Shown here piece by piece: positions 14,337 through 31,620 of a stretch of DNA of 64,000 nt (its first letter is position 1; each line of letters opens with the position of its first letter). The stretch comes from Natronobiforma cellulositropha (GTDB lineage Archaea; Halobacteriota; Halobacteria; Halobacteriales; Natrialbaceae). The DNA lies in contig NZ_JANZXN010000005.1 in NCBI RefSeq assembly GCF_025629245.1, positions 62,001 through 126,000 of the forward strand, in the 5' to 3' direction. The translations under genes and the position numbers were made by a program. The notes below the pieces were generated by a model that had not been told where the DNA came from, ran no database searches, and was given only the letters and a program-made list of their open reading frames with translations.

Positions 14337-14427
14337 GGATGGTGTGTGGGGTGTCGTAGCGTGTTCGCGTGTGGTTCTGTGTTCGTTCGCACGGGGGTAA
14401 GTCGTATCGGTCGGCCGTCGCCCACGC

Positions 14428-15195
14428 TCATCGCACCATGTAGCCGCCGTCGATGGCGACCGACGCGCCGGTGACGTACGAGGAGGCGTCGCTCGCGAGG
14501 TAGACCGCGAGCGGGGCGATGTCCTCGGGCGAGGCCAACTCGTCTAAGAGCATCTCGGACTTCCAGGTGTCGATCATCTCCTGGTCGTCGACGAGGATTT
14601 CGGTCGCGACGTAGCCCGGCGCGATGTTGTTGACGCGGATGCCGTGTTCGGCCCACTCGGAGGCGAGCTGGCGCGAGAACGCCTCCAGGCCCCCCTTCGA
14701 GGCCTGGTAGTCGACGTGTTTCTGCGGGTAGTTCGCGATGAACGCCGACATCGAGGTGACGTTGACGATCGAGCCACCGCCGTCGTCGATCATCACCCGT
14801 CCGGCGTGTTTCGAACAGAGGAACGCCCCCGTCAGGTTGATCTCGAGCGTCTGGTCCCACTCCTCGAGTGACTTCTCCTCTGCGTCGCCGTGGATCGCGA
14901 TGCCCGCGTTGTTGACGAGTACGTCGACGGAACCGAACGCCTCGACGGTCCGTTCGACGAGCGCCTCGACGGCCGCTTCGTCCGAGACGTCCGTCTCGAC
15001 GGCGATGGCGTTCGCGCCCGTCTCGGCTTCGATTTCCGCGGCGGCTTCCTCACCTGACTCGAGCGTCCGGTTGGCGATGACGACGTCCGCGCCCGCTTCG
15101 GCGAGCCCCGTCGCGATTGCCTTGCCAATTCCCCGGTTGCCGCCGGTGACGATCGCTGCCTGTCCGTCGAGTCGAAATCTCTCTAGTACCGACAT
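14428..15195 (-). CDS. Short-chain dehydrogenase/reductase (gluconate-5-dehydrogenase-like)
   Basis: A 255-residue classical SDR. It has the cofactor motif TGGNRGIGKAI (about 18-28), the NNAG motif, the catalytic Ser in NVTSMSAF and the Tyr-Lys pair YQASKGG. It ends in the usual SVAIDGGYMVR. It is closely related over its whole length to the SDR at 26296-27075 (shared LASEWAEHGIRVN, VYLASDAS, DGGYxVR), so the two are paralogues. A TATA element about 28 bp before the ATG supports this start. It probably oxidises a sugar or sugar acid with the neighbouring alcohol dehydrogenase. Confidence 0.9.
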   Translation of the reverse strand: MSVLERFRLDGQAAIVTGGNRGIGKAIATGLAEAGADVVIANRTLESGEEAAAEIEAETGANAIAVETDVSDEAAVEALVERTVEAFGSVDVLVNNAGIAIHGDAEEKSLEEWDQTLEINLTGAFLCSKHAGRVMIDDGGGSIVNVTSMSAFIANYPQKHVDYQASKGGLEAFSRQLASEWAEHGIRVNNIAPGYVATEILVDDQEMIDTWKSEMLLDELASPEDIAPLAVYLASDASSYVTGASVAIDGGYMVR

Positions 15196-15217
15196 AGTAC
15201 CGGCTTCTCGTGACTGG

Positions 15218-15228
15218 GGAATAAAGAT
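15218..15228 (-). promoter_or_regulatory. TATA element of the SDR gene at 15195
   Basis: The minus strand reads ATCTTTATTCC, centred 28 bp before the ATG, which predicts a leaderless transcript. Confidence 0.6.
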
Positions 15229-15284
15229 TATGTAACACGGTGGGGAGTTCAGCGGCGGAGACCGATGCTCACCGGTTCACCGGT

Positions 15285-16166
15285 TCACAGCTCTCGCCAC
15301 GTCCGCGCTGGCTCCCACCCCAGCAGCTCCCTCGCCTTCTCGATGGAGATGAGCGACTCCGTCCCCGGAATCTCACGCCGGTGTTCGGTCTCGGGATAGT
15401 ACTCCTCGAGCAGCGTCTGGCTGTCGACCTCGGCGGTCGTGTCCGCCGCGACCGCCCAGAAGCACTCGTGGCCGTCGAGGTCGGCTTCCAGCGCGAGGCG
15501 AGCGATTTCCGCGCCGTCGTCGACGTGGAGGTACGAGAACATGACGTCGCGCGTCGTGTGGTGCCAGGCCTCGCGCAGTCCCTCGAGGTCGCGCGGTTTC
15601 TCGACGAAGTACTCGCGGAGTTCGTCCTCCGTGGCGACCCACGGATACCGGAGCGAGGCGATCGACGGCGCGTCTTCGAGGCGGCCGAAGCCGTCGGCGG
15701 TCACCTCGATGGCGTGTTTGCTGATCGCGTAGGGGTCTCGTGGAGTCACCGGGTGGGCTTCGTCCATCGGCAGATACTCGACCTCGACCGGTTCGTCCTG
15801 GTAGGCACAGCCGAGGGCGTTGATGCTCGAGGCGAGCACGACCGACTCGAGACCGAGTTCGGTGGCCGCCTCGAGCACGTGATAGGAGGACACGACGTTG
15901 CTCTCGTAGGTGACGAAGCCGGGGTGGTTCGTCGGGCCGGGAATCGTCCCCATGTGGACGATCGCGTCGGCGTCGCTGCGTGCGAGCGACCCGTAGACCT
16001 CGCCAGCGTCGAGGAGATCCGTCGTCAGATACTCGTCAGAGACCTCCTCGCGGCGCTTCCCACGGGCGACGTTGACCGTGTCGTAGCCGTGGCCGTTGAG
16101 GTGGTCGATGATCGCTTCGCCGATCTTGCCGTTCCCGCCGGTCACGGCAACCTTCTCGATACCCAT
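15285..16166 (-). CDS. NAD-dependent epimerase/dehydratase family protein (extended SDR)
   Basis: A 293-residue extended SDR. The N-terminal VTGGNGKIGEAI is the NAD-binding loop. The active-site Ser is in VVLASSINALG, and the Tyr-Lys pair is in DPYAISKHAIE. The C-terminal SIEKARELLGWEPARTWREL is typical of sugar-nucleotide epimerases and uronate or aldose dehydrogenases. In haloarchaea relatives of this shape include the NAD-dependent glucose-6-phosphate dehydrogenase Azf and uronate-dehydrogenase-like enzymes. The surrounding sugar genes favour an aldose or uronic acid dehydrogenase over a nucleotide-sugar epimerase. It has its own promoter and lies divergent from the histidine kinase. Confidence 0.85.
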   Translation of the reverse strand: MGIEKVAVTGGNGKIGEAIIDHLNGHGYDTVNVARGKRREEVSDEYLTTDLLDAGEVYGSLARSDADAIVHMGTIPGPTNHPGFVTYESNVVSSYHVLEAATELGLESVVLASSINALGCAYQDEPVEVEYLPMDEAHPVTPRDPYAISKHAIEVTADGFGRLEDAPSIASLRYPWVATEDELREYFVEKPRDLEGLREAWHHTTRDVMFSYLHVDDGAEIARLALEADLDGHECFWAVAADTTAEVDSQTLLEEYYPETEHRREIPGTESLISIEKARELLGWEPARTWREL

Positions 16167-16190
16167 GTGTGGTACACGAACACATCGGTA

Positions 16191-16199
16191 GGTATAGCT
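16191..16199 (-). promoter_or_regulatory. TATA element of the epimerase-family gene
   Basis: The minus strand reads AGCTATACC, about 29 bp before the ATG at 16166. A partial inverted repeat, TGTGGTACACGAACACA (16167-16183), lies between it and the start codon and could be an operator. Confidence 0.5.
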
Positions 16200-16259
16200 A
16201 TCGGTCCCGGACCACCGCCCAATATTTCCGACCGATGCTCGCGGAAACTGTCACAAAGA

Positions 16260-16268
16260 GTTTACTTT
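16260..16268 (+). promoter_or_regulatory. TATA element of the histidine kinase gene
   Basis: GTTTACTTT is centred 27 bp before the ATG at 16291, which predicts a leaderless transcript from this divergent promoter region. Confidence 0.5.
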
Positions 16269-16290
16269 CCTCGGGCGATAGCTACGACCA

Positions 16291-17712
16291 ATGCTTTCTC
16301 ACCGGCGATCGGACGTGACGACCGTTCTCTACGTGGACGACGACCCGGTCGTCGGCGCTCGCCGTGGTCGGGCGTTAGAGCGCGAACGCGCTCGCTTCGA
16401 CGTACAGGTCGTCCGCGACCGGAACGACGCACTCGAGCAGGTCGACGAACGGCCTGTCGACTGCCTCGTCGGCCCGCTCGAGGACCGAGCGCTGCTCGAG
16501 TCGGTCCGGGCGACCGACCCGGCGCTACCCGTCGTCCTCGTCGGCGAACCCGACACCGCGGTGGCGCTCAACCGCGCGCTCGAAGGCGGCGCGACGGACG
16601 TCGTCTACCGAACCGACGACACCTGGCTCGACCTGCTCACGGTCCGCATCGAGCGCGCCGCCGAAGAGTATCACCGACGCCTCGAATTCGAGCGCTATCA
16701 GCTCATGCTCGACAGCGTGCCCGACGGGGTCTACGCCCTCGACCGTGACTTACACTATCAGTACGTCAATCAGGCGATGACCGACCTCCTCGGCTATCCG
16801 GCCGAGAAACTCGAGGGGAGCGATATCTCGCTGGTCAACGACGACAGCGGCATCGAACGCGCGAACGAAGCACGCCTCCGCGCGCTCGAGCGTGACGATC
16901 GCCGTGGTGTCGCCTACAACGACCACATCACCGCCGACGGCGAACGCATCCCCTGTGAGGTGCTCTTCCGGGCCATCGTCGACGACGACGAGTTTCAGGG
17001 CACCGTCGGCGTCCTCCGCGACATCAGCGACCGACTCGAGCGCGAGCGCGAACTCAAACGCCAGAACGACCGACTGAACGAGTTCACGAGCATCGTCTCA
17101 CACGACCTCAGAAACCCGCTGTTGATCGCCCTCGGTAACCTCGAACTCGCCGAAGAGACCGGCGACGAGGCGGCCATCGAAGAGGCGACGCTCGCACTCG
17201 AGCGCATGTACGACCTCATCGAGGACCTCCTCACGCTCGCCCGTCAGGGGCGGGTCATCGACGACCGCGAGCGCCTCGACCTCGCCTCGCTCGTCGACAC
17301 CGCCCTGCTGACCGTCGGCACCGACGACGTCACCGTCGACGTCGACGGTCTCGAGTCGGTGACGGTCTCCGGCGACGAAACCCGCCTCGGCGAGTTACTC
17401 GAGAACCTGTTTCGGAACACCGTTGAGCATAGCTCAACGAGCCACGCGCTCGACGACGAGGGGGACGGTGACACAGTCACCATCTGGGTCGGTCCACTCG
17501 AGGACGAACCCGGCTTCTACGTCGAAGACGACGGGCCAGGAATCCCCGAATCGGAGCGCGACCGGGTCTTCGACCCCGGGTACACCACTCGAGAGGGCGG
17601 TACCGGCTTCGGGTTACGCATCGTCGAGGAGATCGTCGACGCCCACGGCTGGTCGATCGAACTACGCGAGGGGCGTACCGGCGGGGCGCGCTTCGAGATC
17701 ACGTACGACTAG
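16291..17712 (+). CDS. PAS-domain sensor histidine kinase with degenerate receiver domain
   Basis: A 473-residue soluble signalling kinase with no membrane segment. Residues 12-115 form a receiver-like domain with the acidic pocket VDDDP, but the place of the phospho-acceptor Asp reads CLVGPLED and the usual Lys is Arg (VVYRTDD). It therefore probably cannot be phosphorylated. A PAS domain follows (about 133-250), then HisKA with the phosphorylated H271 in SIVSHDLRNPL. The HATPase domain has the N box ENLFRNTVEHSS, G1 EDDGPGIP and G2 GGTGFGLRIVEEI. Haloarchaea have many such kinases, often without an adjacent regulator, and none lies next to this one. The signal is unknown; the location amid sugar genes may be chance. 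Confidence 0.93.
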   Translation: MLSHRRSDVTTVLYVDDDPVVGARRGRALERERARFDVQVVRDRNDALEQVDERPVDCLVGPLEDRALLESVRATDPALPVVLVGEPDTAVALNRALEGGATDVVYRTDDTWLDLLTVRIERAAEEYHRRLEFERYQLMLDSVPDGVYALDRDLHYQYVNQAMTDLLGYPAEKLEGSDISLVNDDSGIERANEARLRALERDDRRGVAYNDHITADGERIPCEVLFRAIVDDDEFQGTVGVLRDISDRLERERELKRQNDRLNEFTSIVSHDLRNPLLIALGNLELAEETGDEAAIEEATLALERMYDLIEDLLTLARQGRVIDDRERLDLASLVDTALLTVGTDDVTVDVDGLESVTVSGDETRLGELLENLFRNTVEHSSTSHALDDEGDGDTVTIWVGPLEDEPGFYVEDDGPGIPESERDRVFDPGYTTREGGTGFGLRIVEEIVDAHGWSIELREGRTGGARFEITYD

Positions 17713-17744
17713 CTTTTTGTGAGCCGCTCGTGTACCGGACGGGC

Positions 17745-18755
17745 ATGACACTGCGAGTCAGCGACGAGTACACCCGCCGCGGCATCGACACCGTGTTCCT
17801 CGAGAACGACCACCTCCGCGTCGAGGTCCTCGCCGGAAAGGGCGGCGACGTCACCGAGATCCGCGACAAACGGACCGACGTCAACGTCCTCCTCGAGTGC
17901 CCCCACGAGTGGCGTGCACCCGCCGACGGCATCGTCGGCGCACCCGACCCCGCCTTCGCGTTCATGGACCACTATCCCGGCGGCTGGAACGGCGTCCTCC
18001 CCGCCGCAGGCGCACCGACCGAACACCACGGGGCGACCCTCGCCCTCCACGGCGAGTCCTCGCTGGTCCCCTTCGACGCCCAGCCGTTCGACGACGCCGG
18101 CCGCGTCGGCGTCAGACTCACCGCGGACCTGACGCGCTATCCCCTCCACCTCGAGCGCGAACTCTCGCTGTCGGCCGACGAGTCCGCTCTCCGCTGGGCG
18201 GAGACCGTGACGAACACCGGCGCCGTCGGCGTCGACTACTCCTGGCTCCAGCACGTCGCACTCGGCGAGCCGCTCGTCTCCCCGGGCGCGACCCTCGAGA
18301 TCGACTGCGAGCGCGTCCTGACGGACCCCGACCACGACCCCGACACGCGCAGACTCCCCCGCGGCGAGGCGTTCGACTACCCCATCTGTGAGACCGACGA
18401 CGGTCCCATCGACCTCCGCGAGTTCCCCCCGCGCGAGGAGCGCGTCCACGACCTCGCCGCCTTCGCCGACCTCGCCGAGGGGCGCTACACCGTCACCAAC
18501 CCCGACCTCGACCTCGGCGCGACCCTCGAGTTCGACGCCGACCTCTACGAGTACGTCTGGTACTGGGGCGCGTTCGGCGGCTTCGAGACCGCCCCCTACT
18601 TCGGGCGCAACTACAACGTCGGTCTCGAGCCCTGCACCTCGATTCCGACCCAGGCGGGTCTCGACGGCCAACTCGAGAACGAGACCGCGAACCACCTCGA
18701 AGCGGGCGAGACGGTGTCGACGACGCTCACGCTCGAGACGCACGCGGCAGAGTGA
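17745..18755 (+). CDS. Aldose 1-epimerase-like / DUF4432-type protein
   Basis: A 336-residue protein of the galactose-mutarotase fold, expected to bind a sugar and possibly interconvert anomers. The start MTLRVSDEYTRRGI is chosen; a GTG 5 codons earlier is less likely. FLENDHLRVEVLAGKGGDVTEIRDKRT is the usual N-terminal region in which ligand-facing strands begin. DHYPGGWNGVLPAAG, FGGFETAPYFGRNYNVGLEPCTS and the C-terminal THLTLET-like strands fit the DUF4432/aldose-epimerase superfamily. It converges on the SDR at 18776 and lies 32 bp after the histidine kinase gene. In context it likely helps sugar entry into the local oxidation pathway. Confidence 0.75.
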   Translation: MTLRVSDEYTRRGIDTVFLENDHLRVEVLAGKGGDVTEIRDKRTDVNVLLECPHEWRAPADGIVGAPDPAFAFMDHYPGGWNGVLPAAGAPTEHHGATLALHGESSLVPFDAQPFDDAGRVGVRLTADLTRYPLHLERELSLSADESALRWAETVTNTGAVGVDYSWLQHVALGEPLVSPGATLEIDCERVLTDPDHDPDTRRLPRGEAFDYPICETDDGPIDLREFPPREERVHDLAAFADLAEGRYTVTNPDLDLGATLEFDADLYEYVWYWGAFGGFETAPYFGRNYNVGLEPCTSIPTQAGLDGQLENETANHLEAGETVSTTLTLETHAAE

Positions 18756-18775
18756 AAACGAGAGTCGAGGTCGGC

Positions 18776-19582
18776 TCAGACGTCGATCGTCCAGATCGAC
18801 CCGCCGTCGACGCGCCAGTTCGCGCCGTGGACGAACGCGGCGCGCTCTGAGGCGAGGAAGGCGACGACGTTGCCGATGTCCTGTGGGTCGCCGAGGCGGC
18901 CGGTGACGATACCCGGCTTCTCCTCGGCGATGAACTCCGCTTCGACCTGTTCGAGGCTCTTGCCGGTCTCCTCGGCGCGCTCTTCGAAGATCTCCTCGAC
19001 CAGCGGCGTCTTCGTCGTCGCCGGGGAGACGGCGTTGACGCGGATGCCCTCGGGACCGTAGGTCTTCGAGAGGTTCTTCGTGATGTTGATCATCGCCGCC
19101 TTGGTCGCATCGTAGTGGGTCTTGAACGGGTCGGGCTGTGCACCGGCCTCGGAGGCGGTGTTGACGATCACGCCCGACTCCTGCTCGCGCATGTAGGGCA
19201 ACACCTCGCGGGTGACGCGCACGGCGGCCATGATGTTGACGTCGATGACCGCCTCCCACTCGGCGTCTGGAATCTCGTGGAACGGCTTCTCGCTGCCGAG
19301 GATCCCCACGTTGTTGACGAGTACGTCGACGCCGCCGAAGGTGTCGACCGTCTCCTCGACGAGTCGCTCGACGTCCTCGGGGTTCGTCACGTCACCGGCG
19401 ACGCCGAGCACCTGGCCCTCTTCGGGGGCGATTTCGGCCGCGACGCCCGCCGGGTCGTCCTGCTCGAGCGCGGCGATGGTGACGTAACAGCCCTCCGCTG
19501 CGAGCGTCTCGGCGATCGCTCGCCCGATACCCTGGCTGCCGCCCGTTACGATCGCTACCTGCTCCGTGATACCGAACTCCAT
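18776..19582 (-). CDS. Short-chain dehydrogenase/reductase
   Basis: A 268-residue classical SDR with TGGSQGIGRAI (about 14-24), NNVG in place of NNAG, the catalytic Ser in NTASEAGA and YDATKAA as the Tyr-Lys pair. The C-terminal ANWRVDGGSIWTIDV is a little unusual. A longer insertion (EEIFEERAEETGKSLEQVEAEF) before the last third covers the substrate loop. It is less close to the other two SDRs of the window than those are to each other. A TATA element about 29 bp before the ATG supports the start. Likely a sugar or hydroxy-acid dehydrogenase. Confidence 0.9.
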   Translation of the reverse strand: MEFGITEQVAIVTGGSQGIGRAIAETLAAEGCYVTIAALEQDDPAGVAAEIAPEEGQVLGVAGDVTNPEDVERLVEETVDTFGGVDVLVNNVGILGSEKPFHEIPDAEWEAVIDVNIMAAVRVTREVLPYMREQESGVIVNTASEAGAQPDPFKTHYDATKAAMINITKNLSKTYGPEGIRVNAVSPATTKTPLVEEIFEERAEETGKSLEQVEAEFIAEEKPGIVTGRLGDPQDIGNVVAFLASERAAFVHGANWRVDGGSIWTIDV

Positions 19583-20104: not shown

Positions 20105-21178
20105 TCAGTCGGCCCGGTTGCCCGGCGTCTTCATCCCGTCCGAGACCATCTCGGGTGGGACCTCCGGCGAGGCGTCGGCCATGAGTTCCTCGTCGTAGAG
20201 GATACAGCGCGCGCGCTGCTCGCCGACGTCGTACAGCCGTGGCTCACCCTCGCGACACTCGGGCATGGCGGCCGGACAGCGCGGGGCGAACCGACAGCCG
20301 GGATCGAGGTTGACCGGGTCGGGGACCTCGCCTTCGATCTCGATTGGCGTGCGTGACTCGTCGGGGTCGACGATCGGCGTCGAGGAGACGAGCGCCTGCG
20401 TGTAGGGGTGTTTGGGGTCGTTGATGACCTCCGTGGCCGGACCCTGCTCGACGACCTTCCCGAGGTACATGATGGCGATCCGGTCACAGGTGTGTTTGAG
20501 CAGCGAGATGTCGTGGCTGATGTACATCACCGCGAGTCCCATCTCTCGTTGCAGTCGGTTGAGTAAGTCGAGCACGCCCGCGCGCACGCTCACGTCGAGC
20601 ATGCTCGTCGGCTCGTCGGCGACGACGAACGACGGGTTGAGGACGATGGCTCGAGCGATACCCACGCGCTGGCGCTCGCCGCCGCTGAGTTCGGAGGGAT
20701 ACTCCGAGGCGAACGCTTCGGCCGGGCGCAGGCCCGCGAGTTCGAGCGTCTCGAGGACGCGTTCTTCCCGCTCCGCTTCGGTCCCGATGTTGTGGACGTC
20801 GAGTGGCTCTTTGATCCAGTTGAACACCGTAAAGCGTGGATTGATCGACTGGTACGGGTCTTGCTGGATGATCTGGAGCTTGGTCCGTAGCTCCGGGTCC
20901 GTCCGCAGCCTGTCGGTGACGTCCTCACCCTCGAACCGGACCGTCCCTGCAGTCGGTTCGGTCAGTCCGAGTAGGGTCTCACCGAGAGTGGTCTTCCCAC
21001 AGCCACTCTCGCCGGCGATGCCGAGCGCCTCGCCCTCGCGGATGTCGAGTGAGACGCCGTCGACGGCCTTGACCGTCTTCGGTTCGCCCCAGCCGAACAG
21101 CCGGTTGAACAGGTCGTCGTCCGCGCTGAACTGCTTTTTCAGGTCCGCTACCTCGACGACGGATTCGGGGTCAGTCAT
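20105..21178 (-). CDS. dppF: Oligopeptide/oligosaccharide ABC transporter ATPase (DppF/OppF type)
   Basis: A 357-residue ATPase of the Dpp/Opp importer family, second of the two ATPases. It shows Walker A GESGCGKTTLG, the signature LSGGERQRVGIARAI and Walker B FVVADEPTSMLD. The C-terminal oligopeptide-transporter tail CRFAPRCPAAMPECREGEP contains the cysteine motif seen in this family. Its start overlaps the stop of the DppD gene by 8 bp. In halophilic archaea, Dpp-type systems often carry sugars instead of peptides, and the surrounding sugar genes favour that here. Membrane-associated on the cytosolic side. Confidence 0.93.
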   Translation of the reverse strand: MTDPESVVEVADLKKQFSADDDLFNRLFGWGEPKTVKAVDGVSLDIREGEALGIAGESGCGKTTLGETLLGLTEPTAGTVRFEGEDVTDRLRTDPELRTKLQIIQQDPYQSINPRFTVFNWIKEPLDVHNIGTEAEREERVLETLELAGLRPAEAFASEYPSELSGGERQRVGIARAIVLNPSFVVADEPTSMLDVSVRAGVLDLLNRLQREMGLAVMYISHDISLLKHTCDRIAIMYLGKVVEQGPATEVINDPKHPYTQALVSSTPIVDPDESRTPIEIEGEVPDPVNLDPGCRFAPRCPAAMPECREGEPRLYDVGEQRARCILYDEELMADASPEVPPEMVSDGMKTPGNRAD

Positions 21179-22292
21179 CGTTCACCTCGAGTTCCTCGAG
21201 TCGCTGTTCGCGGCTCCCCTCTTGGACCGAGAGCCACGTCTCTTTCTTCTCTGCCTCTGCTCGCAGGTACTCCGCTTCGTCCGCGCGGTGACACTCGACG
21301 ACGTGCTGGTCGCCGTCGGGGAACTGCTCGGGTTCGGGCGTCACCTCCCAGCACTCCTCCTCGGCGAACGGACAGCGCGGGGCGAAGCGACAGCCCTCCT
21401 CAGGATCGATCACCTCCGGCGGACTGCCGGGAATCGAGACGAGGTCCTGGTCGTCCTCGGAGATGTCGGGGAAGGCGTTTCGCATCCCCAGCGTGTAGGG
21501 GTGGCGTGGGTTCTTGATGACGGTCTCTGCGTCGGCGAACTCGACGACGCGGCCGCCGTACATCACGGCGATGTAGTCGCAGTTCTCGGAGACGACCGAC
21601 ATGTCGTGGGTGATCATGATCATCGCCGTGTCGAACTCCCGCTGGAGATCCTTGATCTGGCGGAGGATGCGGTCCTGGATCATCACGTCGAGGGCGGTCG
21701 TCGGCTCGTCGGCGAGGATGATCGAGGGGCTGAGCGCCAGCGCCATCGCGATCATCGCCCGCTGGGCCATCCCGCCGGAGAACTGGTGGGGATAGTCGTG
21801 GACGCGACTCCCCTCGAGTCCGAGGTTCTCGAACAGTTCCTTCGCGCGTTCCCAGGCCTCGGCTTTCGGCGTCTCGGTCTCGTGGCGACGGATCACGTCG
21901 ACGATCTGTCTGCCGACGGTCTTGACCGGGTCGAAGCCGTTCATCGCCGTCTGCGGGATCATCGAGATCTCGGTCCAGCGGATCTCCTCGCGGAGCTGTT
22001 TCTCGCTCAACTCGGTGACCTCGACGCCGTTGAGACGGATGCTGCCGGAGACGACCTCGCCGTTTCGCGGCAGCAGGCGCATGATCGACTTCGCCATCGT
22101 CGTCTTCCCACAGCCGGACTCGCCGACGAGTCCGAGCGTCTCCTGGCGGTCGAGCGTGAGGCTCACGCCGTCGACGGCGTGGAGGTCGCCCGCCTCCGTG
22201 TGGTAGAACGTCCGGAGGTCGTCGACCTCGAGCATGTGGTCGTCGCGCTCGGTGGGCGGTGCGTCGGTCTCGGTGGTGTGTTCTGTCGTCAT
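21171..22292 (-). CDS. dppD: Oligopeptide/oligosaccharide ABC transporter ATPase (DppD/OppD type)
   Basis: A 373-residue ATPase; start chosen at MTTEHTTETDAPPTERDDH because its ATG shares one base with the stop of the permease gene (TGATG). A longer frame upstream would run through the permease. Walker A GESGCGKTTMAKSI (about 57-70), signature FSGGMAQRAMIAMAL, Walker B IILADEPTTALD and the family tail GCRFAPRCPFAEEECWEVTPE are all present. It pairs with DppF to power uptake through the two permeases. The compact order binding protein, DppB, DppC, DppD, DppF is the standard one. Confidence 0.93.
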   Translation of the reverse strand: MTTEHTTETDAPPTERDDHMLEVDDLRTFYHTEAGDLHAVDGVSLTLDRQETLGLVGESGCGKTTMAKSIMRLLPRNGEVVSGSIRLNGVEVTELSEKQLREEIRWTEISMIPQTAMNGFDPVKTVGRQIVDVIRRHETETPKAEAWERAKELFENLGLEGSRVHDYPHQFSGGMAQRAMIAMALALSPSIILADEPTTALDVMIQDRILRQIKDLQREFDTAMIMITHDMSVVSENCDYIAVMYGGRVVEFADAETVIKNPRHPYTLGMRNAFPDISEDDQDLVSIPGSPPEVIDPEEGCRFAPRCPFAEEECWEVTPEPEQFPDGDQHVVECHRADEAEYLRAEAEKKETWLSVQEGSREQRLEELEVNDD

Positions 22293-23227
22293 CAGTGTCT
22301 CAGCTCCGGATTGGTGATCTCCTCGAGTGATCGGCCGATGAAGAAGACGGCCATCACGAGCAACATCAGGCAGATGCCCGGGGGTAAGACCCACCACCAG
22401 GCGAAGCGGATCGCCCCGGAGTGGTAGGCCTGAAAGAGCATCTGTCCCCACGAGTAGAGTTCGGGGTCGCCGAAGCCGAGGAACGCCAGGCTGGCCTCGT
22501 AGATGATGGCGTAGGCGACGGCGAACGCCGCGTAGAGGCCGACGAGCGGGAGGACGTTGGGGAAGATGTGTTTGTACATGATCCTGAGGTCGCTCGCGCC
22601 GATGGCGCGGGCGGACTTGACGTACGGCCGTTGTTTCTGTGTCAGTACCTCGGAGCGGACGACCCTGGCTGAATCACGCCAGAGGACGGCGGCGATGACG
22701 AAGACGATGTTCCAGATGTTCGAGCCGAAGATGAACACCAGGACGATCACGAACGGGAGGAACGGCAACCCGTAGGCGATGTCGACGATGCGCATCAGGA
22801 CGTCGTCGACCCTGCCGCCGTAGTAGGCGCTGATCAGGGCGACGTTCGCGCCGATGAACACCGCGATCAGTGCGGCCAGGAGACCGACGAAGACGGAGAC
22901 GCGCACGGAGACGATCACCTGCGAGAGGACGTCCTCGCCGTAGTTCGTGGTTCCGAGGTAGGCACCCTCGGAGAAGGTCTCGGTCGGCGAGTCGGTCCGG
23001 AGGAGCTGGCCGTCCTCGCCGCGGAGGTTGTCGCCCGGGTCGTGAGGGGCGAGCATCGGCCCGAACAGCGCCAGAAAGAGGAAGCCGAGGATGATCACGA
23101 CGCCGATGGTGGCGAGCGTGTCACCGCGGATGATCCCCCAGACGTAGCCGGCGTCTTTCGAGAGTTTGGCCAGCCTGCGGTTCCCCTCGACGGTCGCGTC
23201 GAGTCGGTCTCTGATATCTGTGCTCAT
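22292..23227 (-). CDS. dppC: ABC transporter permease (DppC/OppC type)
   Basis: A 311-residue inner-membrane permease with about six hydrophobic helices. The N-terminal helix TLATIGVVIILGFLFLALFG is followed by GPMLAPHDPG, a DppC landmark. The EAA-type coupling loop is KSARAIGASDLRIMYKHIFPN, and EASLAFLGFGDPELYSWGQML is typical of the family. Start and stop overlap its neighbours (4 bp with DppB, 1 bp with DppD), so coupled translation is likely. Confidence 0.93.
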   Translation of the reverse strand: MSTDIRDRLDATVEGNRRLAKLSKDAGYVWGIIRGDTLATIGVVIILGFLFLALFGPMLAPHDPGDNLRGEDGQLLRTDSPTETFSEGAYLGTTNYGEDVLSQVIVSVRVSVFVGLLAALIAVFIGANVALISAYYGGRVDDVLMRIVDIAYGLPFLPFVIVLVFIFGSNIWNIVFVIAAVLWRDSARVVRSEVLTQKQRPYVKSARAIGASDLRIMYKHIFPNVLPLVGLYAAFAVAYAIIYEASLAFLGFGDPELYSWGQMLFQAYHSGAIRFAWWWVLPPGICLMLLVMAVFFIGRSLEEITNPELRH

Positions 23228-24195
23228 TCGTATCTCACCCTCGGGTCGAGGAAGACGTAGACGATGTCTGCGACGAAGTTCATGAAGATCACGACGCTCC
23301 CCATCAGGAAGAAGACGGACTGGGCCATCGCGTAGTCGTTGTGCATGACCGAGTCGACCATCTCACGGCCCATGCCGGGCCAGCTGAACACCGTCTCGAT
23401 CACGAGCGAGCCACCGAGGGCGACGCCGACGACGATGGCGACCACCGTCGTGATCGGCAGGATCGAGTTCCGCGCGGCGTACTTGTAGAGGATGATGTAC
23501 TCGGGGTGGCCCTCCGCCTTCTTGATCTCGATGAAGTCGGAGTTCAACACCTGGATCATGCTACTGCGCATGAGCAGCGCCGGTGTCGCCATGTAGAAGA
23601 TGACGCCGGTGAGCAGCGGCAGGAACATGTGGTGGAGGAAGTTCAGCGACAGGTACCGGTCCCAGAACGTCGCGGCCTCGTAACCCGTCTCTCGCATCCC
23701 GCCGGATGGGAACCAGCCGAGGTAAAACGAGAACGTCATCAACAGGAGCAGGCCGATCCAGAACTCCGGCGAGGAGCGGGCGACGAGCGTCATGATGACG
23801 CCGAAGCGCTCTTTGGCGCTCCCGCGGACCCATCCCATGAACGCGCCGATCCCGATCCCGAGGACGTAAGCGATGAGAAAGGCCGGCCCCATCAGGAGGA
23901 CCGTATTCCAGAAGCGGACCCAGATCACGTTCTCGACGGCCGTCCCGTAGCGGAACGACTCACCGAGATCGAGCGACAACAACTGCAGCAGGTAGTTCAC
24001 GTACTGTTCGTGCAACGGCCGATCGACACCCAGTCGCTCGAGCGTCGCCTGACGCTGTTCCGGTCCCATTCCCTCGAGGAGGTACATCGAGGTCGGATCA
24101 CCCGGAGCGATCCGGAAGACGACGAACAGGAGCGTCAGGAACGCGAAGTACGTAACTAGCAGCTGTAAGATCCGCCGCGTGACGTACTTCTTCAT
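23224..24195 (-). CDS. dppB: ABC transporter permease (DppB/OppB type)
   Basis: A 323-residue membrane permease. The start MKKYVTRRILQLLVTYFA, the FRIAPGDPTSMYL segment and LGLDxPLHEQY-like text (RLGVDRPLHEQYVNYL) are DppB landmarks. The coupling loop is KKAEGHPEYIILYKYAARNSI, and the end VYVFLDPRVRYE is standard. It lies 231 bp downstream of the binding-protein gene; a hairpin in that gap probably lowers permease expression compared with the binding protein. Confidence 0.93.
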   Translation of the reverse strand: MKKYVTRRILQLLVTYFAFLTLLFVVFRIAPGDPTSMYLLEGMGPEQRQATLERLGVDRPLHEQYVNYLLQLLSLDLGESFRYGTAVENVIWVRFWNTVLLMGPAFLIAYVLGIGIGAFMGWVRGSAKERFGVIMTLVARSSPEFWIGLLLLMTFSFYLGWFPSGGMRETGYEAATFWDRYLSLNFLHHMFLPLLTGVIFYMATPALLMRSSMIQVLNSDFIEIKKAEGHPEYIILYKYAARNSILPITTVVAIVVGVALGGSLVIETVFSWPGMGREMVDSVMHNDYAMAQSVFFLMGSVVIFMNFVADIVYVFLDPRVRYE

Positions 24196-24426: not shown

Positions 24427-26151
24427 CTACTCCGGCTGGTGGGGGTCGGCCCACTCGTCTTGCGGTTCGTACTCCGGTGGGTAGTGAAGCTGGCCGTCTT
24501 CGTTCCACTGGAAGCCCGCGTCGGCTAAGACGTCGATCGCCGCCTCGATGTCGAACGGTCGCCCGTCGAGAGTGTCGTTGTACCAGAACTCGAGTCCCGG
24601 CGAGAGCGTCGCGTCGATGATCTCGGCGAAGCCGTCGGCACCGATGTCGACGATGTCCTCGCGCGGAATCGTGTAGGCGACCGCCTCCCGGATCGCCGGG
24701 TTGGCGAACGGCTCGCGGCGGCGGTTGGGGACGCCGTAGTGGATCGAGGTCATCAGCGCGCTCTCGAGGGCGATGTCGTCGTCGTCCTCGAGCGTGATCA
24801 GCTGGTCGGCGGGCAGGTCGAAGTTGATCATGTCGACCTCGCCGCCCTGGACGAGACTGGCCGACGAGGAGGCGTCCGCGGACTCGACACGGATGAACTC
24901 GTCGACGTTCGGCTCGTGGTGGTGGCCCTCGTGTGCGCTGAGCCTGAGGTCCTCACCGAGGTCGAACGACTCGAACTGGAACGGCCCGCTGCCGACGTAG
25001 TCCTGTTCGTCGACGATCTCACCGGGTTCGCGACCCTCCCAGACGTGCTGGGGGATGAGACTCGCGTTCCGTCCGGCGAGGATGACCGACTCGAAGATGG
25101 CGTCCGGCTCCGAGAGGTCGAAGCGGACGTCGAGGTCGGTCTCGGCCTCGACGGTCTCGAGGTTCTCCGCGAGCCCGCCGAAGTCGGGGTTCTCCTGTTC
25201 GTGGTACTCGAAGGTGAAGACGACGTCGTCCGCGTCGACGGACTCGCCGTCGTGCCACTCCATACCGTCGCGGAGCGTGACGAGGACGGTCGTGTCGTCC
25301 TCCCACTCGACGCTCTCGGCCGCCCACGGCTGTGGCGTGTACTCCTCGTCCGGGTCGGGGTGCATCAGCCGGTCGTAGACCAGCTGGATCATGTCGCGGT
25401 TGGCGCGGCTCACCAGTCCGGTGACCGGGTCGAGGTTCGTCAGGTCCTCGTGGGAGGCCGCCGTGAGCCGGCCGTCGTCGGTCTCGACCTCGACCATGTT
25501 CCAGATGCCCGCGAGACCGTCCTCGAGCATCCCCGAGACGTTCGAGACCCGGTCGGAGCGGTACGGCATCGCCCGGTCCTGGACGACGATCGGGTGAATC
25601 ACGTTCTCCTCGACGAGGTACTCCTGCATCTCGAAGACGACCTCCTGGCGCTCGTCGGGGTCGACCAGCCCGCGCTGTTCTGCGAGCATCTCCTCGTACT
25701 CCTCGTTGACGTGGCCCGGGACGTTCCCACCGCCTTCGGTCAGCGTACTCTCGCTGGCGATCGTCCGGAGCGCGTTGTCCGGGTCGAAGCCGTCGAGCCA
25801 GCGCATCACCGTGTAGTCGAACTCGCGCGTGTCGAACACCCGCTCTAGGTGAGCGTCGAGCGCTCTCGAGTTGTAGTCGACCTCGATACCGAGTTCGCGG
25901 ATGTTCTCGGCGTGTTGCTGGCCGTACCAGTACCGGAGCGGCGCGTCGGGATCTAAGTTCTCGTAGGTCAGTTCCGGGACCGGTTCACCGTCCGGGTCTT
26001 CGACGACCGCTTCGTCAGGCGCACCCACATCGTCGTCGTCGCCGTTACCCGTACACCCTGCGAGCGAGACCACACCGACCGTTCCTGCGAGACCGGTTGC
26101 CCTGAGGAACGTGCGGCGTGATGGCTGTTCGCTACTGTGTAGCTCTACCAT
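24427..26151 (-). CDS. ABC transporter substrate-binding lipoprotein, SBP_bac_5 fold in circularly permuted order
   Basis: A 574-residue secreted lipoprotein that should deliver solute to the adjacent Dpp-type permease. A Tat signal (SRRTFLRAT, RR at 12-13) and lipobox LAGC (Cys33) anchor it outside the membrane. Residues 60-222 match what is normally the C-terminal part of family 5 binding proteins: AENIRELGIEVDY, EFDYTVMRWLDGFDPDN and EEYEEMLAEQRGLVDPDERQ. Residues 224-555 match the normal N-terminal and middle part: RLTAASHEDLTNLDP, LVYDRLMHPDPD, VTLRDGMEWHDGESVDADDV, YVGSGPFQFE, REAVAYTIPREDI and AIDVLADAGFQW. The order is thus swapped while every block is present in one open frame. ATG at 26151 fits the signal peptide and the TATA element; a longer frame starts 14 codons earlier. 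Confidence 0.88.
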   Translation of the reverse strand: MVELHSSEQPSRRTFLRATGLAGTVGVVSLAGCTGNGDDDDVGAPDEAVVEDPDGEPVPELTYENLDPDAPLRYWYGQQHAENIRELGIEVDYNSRALDAHLERVFDTREFDYTVMRWLDGFDPDNALRTIASESTLTEGGGNVPGHVNEEYEEMLAEQRGLVDPDERQEVVFEMQEYLVEENVIHPIVVQDRAMPYRSDRVSNVSGMLEDGLAGIWNMVEVETDDGRLTAASHEDLTNLDPVTGLVSRANRDMIQLVYDRLMHPDPDEEYTPQPWAAESVEWEDDTTVLVTLRDGMEWHDGESVDADDVVFTFEYHEQENPDFGGLAENLETVEAETDLDVRFDLSEPDAIFESVILAGRNASLIPQHVWEGREPGEIVDEQDYVGSGPFQFESFDLGEDLRLSAHEGHHHEPNVDEFIRVESADASSSASLVQGGEVDMINFDLPADQLITLEDDDDIALESALMTSIHYGVPNRRREPFANPAIREAVAYTIPREDIVDIGADGFAEIIDATLSPGLEFWYNDTLDGRPFDIEAAIDVLADAGFQWNEDGQLHYPPEYEPQDEWADPHQPE

Positions 26152-26295: not shown

Positions 26296-27075
26296 ATGGA
26301 CCTGTTCGACCGACTGGACCTCACCGGCGAGGTCGCCATCGTCACCGGCGGCAGCCGCGGCATCGGATACGGCGTCGCACACGCACTCGCGGAGGCGGGC
26401 GCTCGCGTCGTCATCACCAACCGTGACGCAGCGAGCGGTGCGAGCGCAGCGGCAACGATCGAAGCCGACACCGATGCGAGCGTCGACGCGCTCGGGGCGG
26501 ACGTCTCGGACGAAGCGGCCGTCGAAGCGCTCGTCGACCACGTGCGAGCGGAACACGGGACGGTCGACGTGCTCGTGAACAACGCGGGTATCGTCCACAA
26601 CGTCCCGGCCGAAGCGATGACGCGCGAGGAGTGGCGGGCCGTCCTCGAGGTGAACCTCACCGGCGCGTTCCACTGCGCGAAACACGTCGGGCGCGTGATG
26701 ATCGCCGACGGTGGCGGCTCGATCGTCAACCTCTCGTCGATCTCGGCGTTCGTCGCCAACCACCCCCAGCCACAGGTCAGCTACCAGGCCTCGAAAGGCG
26801 GGATGGACGCGATGACGCGCCAACTCGCCTCCGAGTGGGCCGAACACGGCGTCCGCGTCAACAGCATCAACCCCGGCTACGTCCGGACCGACCTGATCGA
26901 GGACGTCCTCGAGACCGACCCCGAGATGGCCCGCGAGTGGTACGACGGGATGTTGCTCGAGGAGATGGCCAGACCCGAAGACGTCGGCCCGCTCGCGGTC
27001 TACCTCGCGAGCGACGCCTCGGCGTACGTCACCGGCCAGTCGGTCACCATCGACGGCGGCTACACGGTTCGCTGA
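26296..27075 (+). CDS. Short-chain dehydrogenase/reductase
   Basis: A 259-residue classical SDR with TGGSRGIGYGV (about 15-25), NNAG, the Ser in NLSSISAF and YQASKGG as the Tyr-Lys pair; it ends SVTIDGGYTVR. It is a paralogue of the SDR at 14428-15195, sharing long stretches such as RQLASEWAEHGVRVN and VYLASDASAYVTG. It is read divergently from the importer operon out of a shared control region, so it probably acts on the imported sugar or its first product. Typical relatives oxidise gluconate, sorbitol or similar polyols; the substrate here is not known. Confidence 0.92.
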   Translation: MDLFDRLDLTGEVAIVTGGSRGIGYGVAHALAEAGARVVITNRDAASGASAAATIEADTDASVDALGADVSDEAAVEALVDHVRAEHGTVDVLVNNAGIVHNVPAEAMTREEWRAVLEVNLTGAFHCAKHVGRVMIADGGGSIVNLSSISAFVANHPQPQVSYQASKGGMDAMTRQLASEWAEHGVRVNSINPGYVRTDLIEDVLETDPEMAREWYDGMLLEEMARPEDVGPLAVYLASDASAYVTGQSVTIDGGYTVR

Positions 27076-27132
27076 GCGGGACGAGACGACTGGTCGCGTT
27101 CGGCTCGCGCGTGCGGAACCGCGAAGTTCGGC

Positions 27133-27993
27133 TCAGTACTCGACGCGCGAGTAGTACTCCGGTTTTCCTTCGTACTCGAGGTCGAACGCGAACAGCCGTC
27201 CGGCGAGCGCGTTCGTCAGGGGTGCCTCGAAGGTCGCGCTCGTCACGTAGGCACGCCGGGAGTCCTCGCCCCCGAAAGAGAGTGTGGTGACGTTCGCCGC
27301 CGGCACGTCGACCCACTCGTCGAGGTCGCCCTCGGGGGTGAGACGGACGATCGCGTGGCCGCCCCAGAGACCGACCCAGACGCCGCCGTCGGCGTCGACG
27401 GTCAGGCCGTCGTAGGCCCACGCCTCGTCGGCGCTCGCGAAGACCCGCCGGTTCGAGAGGTCGCCCGTCTCGACCTCGTAGTCGTAGGCGTAGATCGTGT
27501 TCGTGTTCGTCTCGACGAGGTAGAACGTCTCCTCGTCGGGCGAAAATCCCATCCCGTTCGGGAGTTCGACACCGTCCTCGAGTCGGGTCAGCGTGCCGTC
27601 GGTCTCGAGGCGGGAGAGGTGGCCGACGCCGTGGTCGTCGTCGGTCATCGACCCGACGAAGACGCGACCGCGCGGATCGGCGACGACGTCGTTGAACCGC
27701 AGCCCGTCCTCCTCCGCGAGTCCGTCGACGACGGTGTCGGCCGCGCCGTCGTCCCAGACCGTGATGCGCCCGCCCGCGCCGAACAGCAGGACGGAGCCGT
27801 CGTCCTGGAACGTGAAGCCGCCGATGGGTGGGTCCGTGTGACACAGGTCGTGCTCGTCGGCGGCCGGATCGTACCGGTACAGCGACCCGCTCGGGATGTC
27901 GACCCAGTAGACGGTCCCCTCGTCCGGATGCGCGAGCGCTCCCTCACCGATCCAGCACGGAACGTCGGCGACGACGCTCGGTTGTGGTGGCAT
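27133..27993 (-). CDS. SMP-30/gluconolactonase family lactonase
   Basis: A 286-residue six-bladed beta-propeller, expected to open sugar lactones made by the dehydrogenases around it. Metal ligands of the family are visible: Glu in WIGEGALAHP (about 15), Asn in RFNDVVAD, Asn in ELPNGMGFSPDE and Asp in YDGLTVDADGGVWVGLWGG. The metal is usually calcium or zinc in the cytosol. A TATA element and a 15-bp palindrome lie right in front of the start. Lactonase plus sugar dehydrogenases is a strong sign of an oxidative, non-phosphorylated sugar route. Confidence 0.92.
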   Translation of the reverse strand: MPPQPSVVADVPCWIGEGALAHPDEGTVYWVDIPSGSLYRYDPAADEHDLCHTDPPIGGFTFQDDGSVLLFGAGGRITVWDDGAADTVVDGLAEEDGLRFNDVVADPRGRVFVGSMTDDDHGVGHLSRLETDGTLTRLEDGVELPNGMGFSPDEETFYLVETNTNTIYAYDYEVETGDLSNRRVFASADEAWAYDGLTVDADGGVWVGLWGGHAIVRLTPEGDLDEWVDVPAANVTTLSFGGEDSRRAYVTSATFEAPLTNALAGRLFAFDLEYEGKPEYYSRVEY

Positions 27994-28725: not shown

Positions 28726-30915
28726 CTACCTCGGCGCGATCAGTTCCGCGACGTGCGCCGGGTCGTCGTCCAGCACCGCCGCCACCTGTTCGCCACAGGA
28801 GGTGCCGCTGGTGAGGACGTGATCGTACTCGAGCGAGGAGAGCTGGTCGCCGAGTGACTCGCCGACTTCCATCGCGAGTTCGTAGTACTGGCTCTTGTAG
28901 CCGAAACTGCCCGCCATCCCGCAGCACTCGGCCGAACTCGTCTGGACCTCGTAGCCCAGTTCCTCGAGCACGGCGACGGTGTGTGCCTCGAGTCCCATCG
29001 TCCGCTGCTGGCAGTGGCTGTGGTAGGCGACGCGCGCCCCGCCGGTATCGTCCGGCCCGGCGAGCGCGCTCGGGTCGACACCCTCCTGGACGACCAGTCC
29101 GTAGACGTACTCGAGCAGGTCGTAGCTGTTCGACGACAGCCGGTCGAACGAGGCGTCGGGCAGGAACTTCTCGTAGTCGTCGCGGAACATCGCGAGGTCG
29201 CTCGGCTCGACGACGACCACGTCCGCCCCGGCGTCGAGGTGGTCGGCCAGCGCCGCGTCCACCGCGTGGGCACGCTCGCGGGCCGTCTCGACCATCCCCT
29301 GTGAGAGCGGGGCGCGCCCGCTCGAGGGGACGGCCGGAATCTCGACCGGGACGCCGAGTGACTCGAGGACCGCGACGGCGGCTTTCCCGCGCTCGACGTC
29401 GATGTAGTTCGTCGCCGTGTCGGGGTAGAGGACGACTCGCCGGTCGGTCGTCGGCTCGCGGACGTGCGTCCCGCCGCGTGCCGCGAACCACTCGCGCAGC
29501 GTCTCACGCTGGAACGTCGGGAGGTCCCGACGGCGGTCGACGCCCGCGAGGCGCTCCAGCAGGTAGCGACTCGGCGCGAGCGAGCCGACCCAGTTCGAGA
29601 GCGGAGCCAGCGCGCTCCCGACTCTCGCGAGCGTCTCAAAGTTGCCGAAGAGGCGCTTCTGGTGGTCGATCCCGCCGTCCTCGATGTCGGGCGTGAGTCC
29701 CGCATACAGCGGGTCGAGGATGGCGTCGTCGCCGGTGCGGTTGACCCGGTCGCGGACCGCGGTGTTGATCCACGGGATGTCGATCTCGACCGGACACTGG
29801 TTGACACAGCGGCTACAGCCGGTACAGAGGTCGTTGAACGTGGCGGCGCTGTCCTGGCCGTGGATGCCCGCCTCCCAGCCGGTCGCGATGCCGCCGGTGT
29901 AGGTCTCCCCGCCGAAGGCGTGGCCGCCGACGTGCTGAAAGTTCGCACACGAGTTGAGACAGGCCGAACAGCGCACGCAGTAGAGTGTCTCGCGCAGCAC
30001 CTCGTCCTCGCGCATCTCGCTGCGGCCGTTGTCGATCAGGACGAGGTGAAACGCCCGCTCGTCCGCGCCGTCGAGCGGCGGCGTGTTCACCGGCGGCGAG
30101 AAGACCGAGGTGTAGCTCGTGATCGACTGGCCGTTGCCCGAACTCGCGACGAGTTCGAAAAACGGGGCGAGATCGGTCAGCGAGGGAACGATCTTCTCGA
30201 TGCCCGCGACCGCGATGTGGGTGTCGGTCGACTCGACCACCTTCCGGGCGTTGCCCTCGTTGGTGATCAGCGCGAGCGAGCCCGTCTCGGCGACGAGGAA
30301 GTTCGCCCCCGTCATCCCCACGTCGGCCTCCTCGATCCGCTCGGCGAGGTAGTCGCGCGCGAACGCGGTCAGCTCCTCGGCCGACTCGAGTGGCTCCTCG
30401 AGGTCGAAGTGTTCGTCGAACAGCGCCGCGATCTCGGGTTTCGACTTGTGGAGACTCGGCCCGACGATGTGTGAGGGTTTCTCGCCGGCGAGCTGGATCA
30501 CCAGTTCGCCGAGGTCGGTCTCGTGGACCTCGACGCCGCCTGACTCGAGGGCGTCGTTGACCTCGATCTCTTCGGTGGTCATCGACTTCGACTTCACGAC
30601 CGACTCCGCGCCCGCCTCGGCGACGAGGTCGGCGATGTGTCGGTTCGCGTCGGCGGCGTCGGCGGCGAGGTAGACCGTTCCGCCGTTGGCTTCGACGCTC
30701 TCGCGCAGTTGCTCGACGAGTTCCGGGAGGCGTTCGATGGCGTCTTCCTTGATCGCGCGAGCGCGACTCCTGAGGTCCTGGCGCGCCTCCTCACCCATCT
30801 CTTCGAAGACGTCGTAACGGCGCTGGTTGATCACCGTCGTGTTGTGCTTGACCGTCTCGCCTTCGGTCTCCATCAGCCAGCGGATGTGGGCTGCGGTGTC
30901 GCGTTTGCTCGTCAT
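28726..30915 (-). CDS. lutB: LutB-LutA fusion: LUD-domain iron-sulfur oxidoreductase with CCG domain
   Basis: A 729-residue protein that joins two subunits of the lactate (or other hydroxy-acid) oxidase complex LutABC. Residues about 50-300 are a LUD domain (GANFLVAETGSLALITNEGN). Two 4Fe-4S motifs follow: CVRCSACLNSCANFQHVGG and CTGCSRCVNQCPVEI. The C-terminal third is a LutA/GlcF-like CCG domain with HSHCQQRTMGLEAH and SSAECCGMAGSFGY. In bacteria LutA and LutB are often separate genes. It overlaps LutC by 4 bp (ATGA). It probably feeds electrons from lactate or glycolate to the membrane; a related sugar-derived hydroxy acid is also possible in this setting. Confidence 0.92.
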   Translation of the reverse strand: MTSKRDTAAHIRWLMETEGETVKHNTTVINQRRYDVFEEMGEEARQDLRSRARAIKEDAIERLPELVEQLRESVEANGGTVYLAADAADANRHIADLVAEAGAESVVKSKSMTTEEIEVNDALESGGVEVHETDLGELVIQLAGEKPSHIVGPSLHKSKPEIAALFDEHFDLEEPLESAEELTAFARDYLAERIEEADVGMTGANFLVAETGSLALITNEGNARKVVESTDTHIAVAGIEKIVPSLTDLAPFFELVASSGNGQSITSYTSVFSPPVNTPPLDGADERAFHLVLIDNGRSEMREDEVLRETLYCVRCSACLNSCANFQHVGGHAFGGETYTGGIATGWEAGIHGQDSAATFNDLCTGCSRCVNQCPVEIDIPWINTAVRDRVNRTGDDAILDPLYAGLTPDIEDGGIDHQKRLFGNFETLARVGSALAPLSNWVGSLAPSRYLLERLAGVDRRRDLPTFQRETLREWFAARGGTHVREPTTDRRVVLYPDTATNYIDVERGKAAVAVLESLGVPVEIPAVPSSGRAPLSQGMVETARERAHAVDAALADHLDAGADVVVVEPSDLAMFRDDYEKFLPDASFDRLSSNSYDLLEYVYGLVVQEGVDPSALAGPDDTGGARVAYHSHCQQRTMGLEAHTVAVLEELGYEVQTSSAECCGMAGSFGYKSQYYELAMEVGESLGDQLSSLEYDHVLTSGTSCGEQVAAVLDDDPAHVAELIAPR

Positions 30916-31430
30916 TCGACGATCACGACCTCCATCTCCGCCGGGCCGTGGACGCCGACGACCAGTTCACCCATGTCTCCCGTCGAGGACGGTCCCGTGA
31001 CGAAGACGACGTCGTTCGCCCCCGCCGCGAAGTCCGCCGCGAGCAGTTCGAGCGCCGTCTCGAGGTCGGCGACGATGTCGGCCGCCTCGAGGATCGCGAC
31101 GTGTTTCGGCGGGAAGAGGCTCACGGGTCCGTCGAGACCCGGGCTCGAGGAGACGACGATGCTGCCGAGGGAGGCGACGCCGAGACGCGCACGCGTGATT
31201 CCGGTCGCGGCCGCCCGGAGGTCCGCCAGTGTCGGTTCGGTGCCGATTGCGGCCGGGAGGTCGACGCCGTCGCCGAGGTCGCTCGCGACGGCGGGCTCGG
31301 TGAGCCGCGTCTCGAGTGTATCCGCGAGTGCATCTCTGGAAACGACCGTCGAGTCGACGTCGACCGCTGCCAGGCGGTCTCGAAACGCCGAGCGGAGCGA
31401 CCGGTCGACAGTGTTGTTCGTACGGCTCAT
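30912..31430 (-). CDS. lutC: LutC-like LUD-domain protein
   Basis: A 172-residue protein with the LUD fold: ARLGVASLGSIVVSSSPG matches the ligand loop, and ANDVVFVTGPSSTGDM is the conserved end of LutC, close to the subunit contact. The start MSRTNNTVDRSLRSAF is chosen; the frame extends 56 codons further up, but that stretch is Arg-rich and unlike the rest. A TATA-like element at 31621-31630 would give a leader of about 165 nt to this start. It overlaps the LutB fusion gene by 4 bp, so the two form one unit. Confidence 0.85.
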   Translation of the reverse strand: MSRTNNTVDRSLRSAFRDRLAAVDVDSTVVSRDALADTLETRLTEPAVASDLGDGVDLPAAIGTEPTLADLRAAATGITRARLGVASLGSIVVSSSPGLDGPVSLFPPKHVAILEAADIVADLETALELLAADFAAGANDVVFVTGPSSTGDMGELVVGVHGPAEMEVVIVE

Positions 31431-31620
31431 GCCGCCACCTCGGCAGCGCGTCGTGGCATCTCGTCTGTGTGTGCGCTCATGTGCTTCGTTGCGTTGGTCG
31501 GCCGGCCGGACGCGTCTCGAGCGGTGGAGACGGGTCCATGGCCGGTCAGCGTGGAACGCGGATAGTCGACTCCACGTACCACTCGGGTTCGGTCTCACTC
31601 ACTACTGGTGAGCCATACGG

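Follow-up and report, generated by a model that had tools for sequence, protein, structure and literature searches.

The region analyzed in this work (hereinafter the window, i.e., the whole stretch of 64,000 nucleotides of the Natronobiforma cellulositropha genome) harbors, at positions 24427-26151 of its minus strand, an open reading frame coding for 574 amino acids if counted from ATG, with an alternative GTG start possible 14 codons upstream. The gene codes for a solute-binding protein of family 5 (SBP_bac_5) and is followed downstream, on the same strand, by a complete dppB-dppC-dppD-dppF set in the normal order; on both points (the open frame and the order of the permease genes) a preliminary description of the locus proved correct. 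The features of the gene and of its operon are as follows:

26053-26151, minus strand: signal peptide (residues 1-33), with RR at 12-13 and the lipobox LAGC with Cys33, read from the sequence
25978-26052, minus strand: acidic linker (about residues 34-58), likewise a reading of the sequence; the mature fold starts at strand 61-66
25483-25974, minus strand: block B (residues 60-223), equal to the normal C-terminal part (PF00496 positions 290-367 and beyond), from the profile match of the relatives' block B and the mapping on MppA
25474-25488, minus strand: join between former C-terminus and former N-terminus (about residues 222-226, MVEVETDDG-RLTAAS), MppA 537 to 36
24478-25476, minus strand: block A (residues 226-558), equal to the normal N-terminal part, with PF00496 positions 1-287 on residues 272-556
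24430-24477, minus strand: new C-terminus past the cut (residues 559-574); homologues end at or just after ...GRLHYP
23224-24195, minus strand: dppB-type permease (BPD_transp_1, E 1.9e-34)
22292-23227, minus strand: dppC-type permease (BPD_transp_1 and OppC_N)
21171-22295, minus strand: dppD-type ATPase (ABC_tran and oligo_HPY), start codon uncertain
20105-21178, minus strand: dppF-type ATPase (ABC_tran and oligo_HPY)

The twin-arginine motif and the lipobox that had been reported in front of the protein are visible by inspection, and RR 12-13 and G32/C33 of the signal peptide are kept in the alignment of haloarchaeal homologues; the Pfam TAT_signal profile remained under its cut-off (E 0.013), and export as a Tat lipoprotein is inferred from the motifs alone. 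At the other end of the chain, nearly all of the 29 haloarchaeal homologues stop at ...AGY-W--DGRLHYP or a few residues beyond. The window gene differs from its best homologue by 0.27, 0.20, and 0.55 at codon positions 1, 2, and 3, respectively, as expected for a protein that is maintained by purifying selection.

The presence in one operon of two permeases and of two ATPases with oligo_HPY assigns the gene to an importer of the DppABCDF type. In the window it runs in line with dppBCDF, and in the two closest loci (L231 and L232) it is divergent, which indicates that it has been flipped relative to the permease genes. Much of the neighborhood is kept in the closest genome (G043). The importer is flanked (13209-19582 and 26296-27993) by several dehydrogenase genes and by genes for an epimerase-family protein, a DUF4432 protein, and an SMP-30/gluconolactonase, an assortment resembling sugar or sugar-acid catabolism; an IclR regulator and LUD and iron-sulfur genes of the kind known from lactate utilization also lie nearby. 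At 28726-31598, a 729-aa protein in which LUD is fused to iron-sulfur and cysteine-rich domains adjoins a separate LUD gene, the two forming a set of the lactate-utilization type. The neighboring genes suggest, as weak evidence only, that the ligand is a sugar or a sugar-derived acid.

Block order and predicted fold

The whole window protein gave a single match to PF00496 (SBP_bac_5), in which residues 272-556 cover positions 1-287 of the 368 of the profile (E 3.6e-54); its score of 184.7 bits, against a curated cut-off of 32.4, places it in the family. Nothing beyond positions 1-287 is co-linear with the profile, and since the match ends at position 287 and the protein stops there, the last 81 positions are absent from their normal place. 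Scanned alone in Pfam, the window protein's N-terminal block is too diverged and gave no match of note. The N-terminal blocks of seven relatives match PF00496 solely at positions 290-367 (E 0.01 to 5.3e-11), and in permuted relatives the C-terminal part matches it at about 1-287. The pair of reversed PF00496 matches by which the permutation was to be recognized is found in the blocks of the relatives, whereas the window protein itself yields only the one (1-287). A sequence search against the PDB aligned residues 269-559 with residues 54-348 of Listeria CtaP (5isu) and residues 83-193 with residues 363-470 of the same chain, that is, in reversed order, the second stretch being weak if taken alone (i-Evalue 0.45). 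When the family profile was compared with the PDB, the 60 top-ranking chains all had their best stretch starting no earlier than profile position 213, so that none of these 60 chains exhibits the permuted order. The swapped blocks of the preliminary description are in agreement with the profile positions, the relatives' blocks, and the reversed PDB stretches, and the limits it gave (60-222 and 224-555) were right to within a few residues. The window protein is thus confirmed to be a circularly permuted family-5 solute-binding protein with block order B-A.

The AlphaFold model of the window protein, obtained with an input of 33 permuted sequences, has a pLDDT of 89.1 and a pTM of 0.86, with low confidence at residues 1-38. 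The series of elements E H E H E H H H E predicted in residues 61-198 matches that of residues 403-538 in the model of a normal-order control, and the counterpart of the terminal helix 535-544 is control helix 375-384, from which the control passes into that very series. The cut separates, as had been proposed, a helix from the strand that follows it, with helix 535-544 at the new C-terminus and strand 61-66 at the new N-terminus. The Foldseek comparison of the model with solved family members extended over about 346 columns with a TMt of at most 0.57, compared with about 510 columns and a TMt of 0.88-0.93 for the best matches of the control. Given that the Foldseek alignment is sequential and that a permuted chain can match only partly, this short match is, at the level of the predicted structures, the pattern expected from circular permutation. 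All the best PDB matches of the model belong to family 5/cluster C, and the predicted fold is of the two-lobe OppA/DppA kind that the preliminary description had anticipated. Overall, profile positions, homologues, AlphaFold model, and fold search all support a permutation with a complete two-lobe fold.

In the alignment to E. coli MppA, the cut falls at residues 376-383, block B maps from about residue 383 through the C-terminus at 537, and the new join leads from 537 to about 36. In the MppA structure, domain 2 comprises residues 288-506 and domain 1a residues 23-65, 197-285, and 509-540 (PMC6022919); according to this mapping and these borders, the old ends are fused inside lobe 1, and lobe 2 carries the new ends along with the lipid anchor. 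We propose that the gene codes for a lipid-anchored binding protein that serves a DppABCDF-type importer and is permuted with respect to OppA/DppA, the former ends being joined in lobe 1 and the new ones opened in a helix-strand loop of lobe 2. The membrane tether would be attached to lobe 2 rather than to lobe 1; the shift of geometry itself is real, and its mechanical effect is inferred. Since lobes and ligand cleft are unchanged, the ligand should be bound and handed to DppBC in the usual way, ligand binding and transport being inferences.

Distribution and origins of the permuted order

Block order was scored with separate profiles for the two blocks in all long frames of the loci retrieved. 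The 29 haloarchaeal homologues that were aligned, over their full length and at 25-64% identity to the window protein, all share the permuted order, the outcome that the preliminary description had foreseen for related haloarchaeal genomes. The source genome harbors 15 SBP_bac_5 genes, four of which are permuted (the window gene and three paralogues with the same order and cut), and about 55 of the 82 genomes of the window's taxonomic order possess a permuted member (counted by hand, a best match with E no worse than about 1e-79 being taken as the proxy). Identical order and cut were found in Halobacteria, Desulfurococcaceae, Pseudomonadota, Thermodesulfobacteriota, Bacillota, Chloroflexota, Actinomycetota, and Atribacterota; the permuted order spans at least six bacterial phyla, some of which also hold normal members, and several of the taxa with permuted members are represented by metagenome-assembled genomes. 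A scan of genome contigs with a single protein gave no match, the patterns being too specific, and an alignment-based scan succeeded. At E <= 1e-85, no permuted member was found in 299 sampled genomes of Pseudomonadota apart from the seed genome, and the permuted form is rare in this phylum at that threshold.

The phylogenetic trees were built on common-frame alignments, in which block order carries no signal. In the first set the permuted rows cluster, and constraining them to one clade lifts the likelihood by 24.9 units (p-AU 0.908); as far as such trees can tell, the window protein sits in one old permuted SBP_bac_5 subfamily. In the wider set, one clade of all first-type permuted rows was rejected (log-likelihood 415 lower, p-AU 4e-29), and with it a single origin for all permuted forms. 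The tree including the Thermoproteota forms needs seven changes of architecture. The clearest nested case lies within one genus, where a permuted pair (support 97) falls inside a group with support 100 that also contains normal congeners. Judged from the sequences, the permutation as a whole arose repeatedly; the trees being quick ones with support from likelihood tests only, the number of events is approximate and their direction unrooted. The locus is not, then, the singular oddity depicted in the preliminary description; it belongs to an old and widespread permuted subfamily, and several permutations occurred independently.

A second type of permutation was found in four Thermoproteota proteins (L211, L217, L222, and L227) ordered A2-B-A1, with the cut at about MppA 231-240 in lobe 1. 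This position lies inside domain 1a, which rules out the hinge as the site of the second cut. At least some of these proteins continue past A1, in some via an extra domain, into a hydrophobic C-terminus that is probably membrane-spanning.

A recent permutation comes from a family of the same phylum (f21), in which the gene is permuted in three genomes (G298, G290, and G339) and in normal order in three congeners (G274, G286, and G404), the two forms sharing 81-87% identity in block A and 84-90% in block B. The cut lies in the same loop: the normal protein reads ...AGYSE|DNKLKLELWWTP..., whereas in the permuted one the signal is followed by KKLKIELWWTP... and the chain ends with AGYSE-stop. The permuted gene of G298 is divergent from dppBCDF and the normal gene of G237 collinear with it. 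The permuted loci L202, L203, and L204 and the normal loci L205, L206, and L207, all of one archaeal genus and 81-90% identical per block, represent a natural pair for experiments.

According to the usual model, natural permutations arise through duplication, in-frame fusion, and then trimming. Applied to this family, a normal gene would have been tandemly duplicated and its copies fused; the loss of the first block in copy one and of the last block in copy two would then have led to the B-A order. Both the recent permutation among congeners and a fused tandem protein fit this route; the latter (L197, 130-3207, plus strand, in a draft genome) is one frame of 1026 aa with the arrangement A1-A2-B-A1-A2-B and halves 68% identical, and it looks like the expected intermediate. 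As the model predicts, the recently permuted genes have retained a signal peptide resembling the normal one (MKKL...LLGCAQQ). No convincing decayed second copy was found beside the recently permuted genes, so the route, although the most likely one, is inferred and not observed directly.

Three other readings of the locus have to be considered. The source genome is a draft of 60 contigs, and it might be argued that an assembly error or a local rearrangement broke the gene; we give this idea practically no credit, as it is refuted by independent genomes with the identical order, including full-length homologues at 65%, 53%, and 44% identity, and the codon-position pattern is that of a maintained gene. 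The conservation of the order in all the aligned haloarchaeal homologues excludes chance and also, as the preliminary description had maintained, a faulty assembly. It is also conceivable that block B is an unrelated or convergent N-terminal domain placed ahead of a truncated binding protein, a reading to which its lack of a Pfam match of note in the window protein and the weak CtaP match lend some support. We consider it very improbable, given that block B of the relatives matches PF00496 positions 290-367 (up to E 5e-11), that in the recently permuted genes it shares 84-90% identity with the C-terminal part of the congeners in normal order, and that its secondary-structure elements follow in order those of the control's C-terminal part.

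Lastly, the protein might be permuted and folded, yet no part of an importer, acting as a stand-alone receptor or sensor; indeed, some haloarchaeal permuted paralogues (L108 and L110) have no dpp permease genes in their fetched flanks. This possibility is slight, if somewhat less so than the other two: dppB, dppC, and dppD adjoin the window gene and most of the bacterial members with enough flank, mostly together with dppF, the bacterial members mostly directly precede dppB, and the two closest homologues are also next to dppBCDF. We hold with high confidence that the locus encodes a working, lipid-anchored, permuted binding protein of the DppABCDF type belonging to an old subfamily, with ligand binding, transport, and the duplication route as inferred components; order, conservation, predicted fold, operon, and repeated origin have been established computationally. 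As for the family at large, it appears probable that circular permutation via fused tandem copies is a recurrent event in the evolution of family-5 binding proteins, that a single helix-strand loop of lobe 2 was opened on several independent occasions and another site, in lobe 1, in Thermoproteota, and that the permuted forms are stable alternatives that shift the chain ends and, where the protein is anchored, the tether.

Known binding proteins and the position of the tether

The canonical cluster C proteins (OppA, DppA, MppA, NikA, AppA, and CtaP; PF00496) share with the window protein the same blocks, the dppBCDF kind of operon, the type of signal, and, according to the model, the two-lobe fold. 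They differ in block order (A-B versus B-A); in the window protein the former ends are linked in lobe 1 and the chain is opened in lobe 2, near MppA 376-383. The lobe strand order of periplasmic binding proteins has changed before in evolution, through the domain dislocation that relates type I and type II. That event is ancient and lies between fold classes, whereas the present swap occurred within one sequence family, repeatedly, and once between congeners.

A natural circular permutation has also been described in another ABC-importer binding protein, TpMglB-2 (Tp0684) of Treponema pallidum, for which the designation 'Type Ic / Cluster Bc' was proposed; a set of related proteins is permuted, and binding and closing were shown to survive (PMC4990184). 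The likeness ends there, since TpMglB-2 has a cluster B sugar-binding fold, belongs to an unrelated family, and has another cut, and many permuted family-5 members lack a lipobox. Nor does the window protein belong to that type: Pfam returned only SBP_bac_5 and weak signal-peptide families, and its best structural matches are of cluster C. Permuted binding proteins engineered as biosensors (PMC6335823) also have new chain ends in a binding-protein fold; they are man-made and derive from other binding-protein families, whereas the family-5 permutants are natural and conserved. No earlier description of a permutation in family 5/cluster C was found in openly licensed PMC papers. The statement that permutation was undescribed in this importer family holds to that extent, binding-protein permutation as such being known in cluster B, and within the literature searched this is the first one found in cluster C, where it is widespread and recurrent.

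Family-5 binding proteins are among the very numerous transport genes of prokaryotes. Since family models assume a co-linear order, the permuted members are only half recognized and generically named, and public plasmid records label such genes merely as 'ABC transporter substrate-binding protein'. The repeated origin, above all the congener pairs with 81-90% identity per block, makes the natural origin of permutation directly testable, as are its effects on folding, ligand binding, membrane anchoring, and permease docking.

For TpMglB-2, tethering was proposed by the authors as a possible reason for the permutation (PMC4990184). In family 5, a simple motif test showed no lipobox in 12 of the 13 permuted frames from Pseudomonadota; since most of these proteins lack one, a moved tether cannot be the general reason, and the strong form of this explanation was rejected. 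A separate observation concerns L167 (minus strand, 588 aa), which is permuted, has no clear lipobox, and ends in TPGFGVIAVIAGVMAATYLLRRRR. This ending resembles a sorting signal of the PGF-CTERM type and would place the anchor at the new C-terminus.
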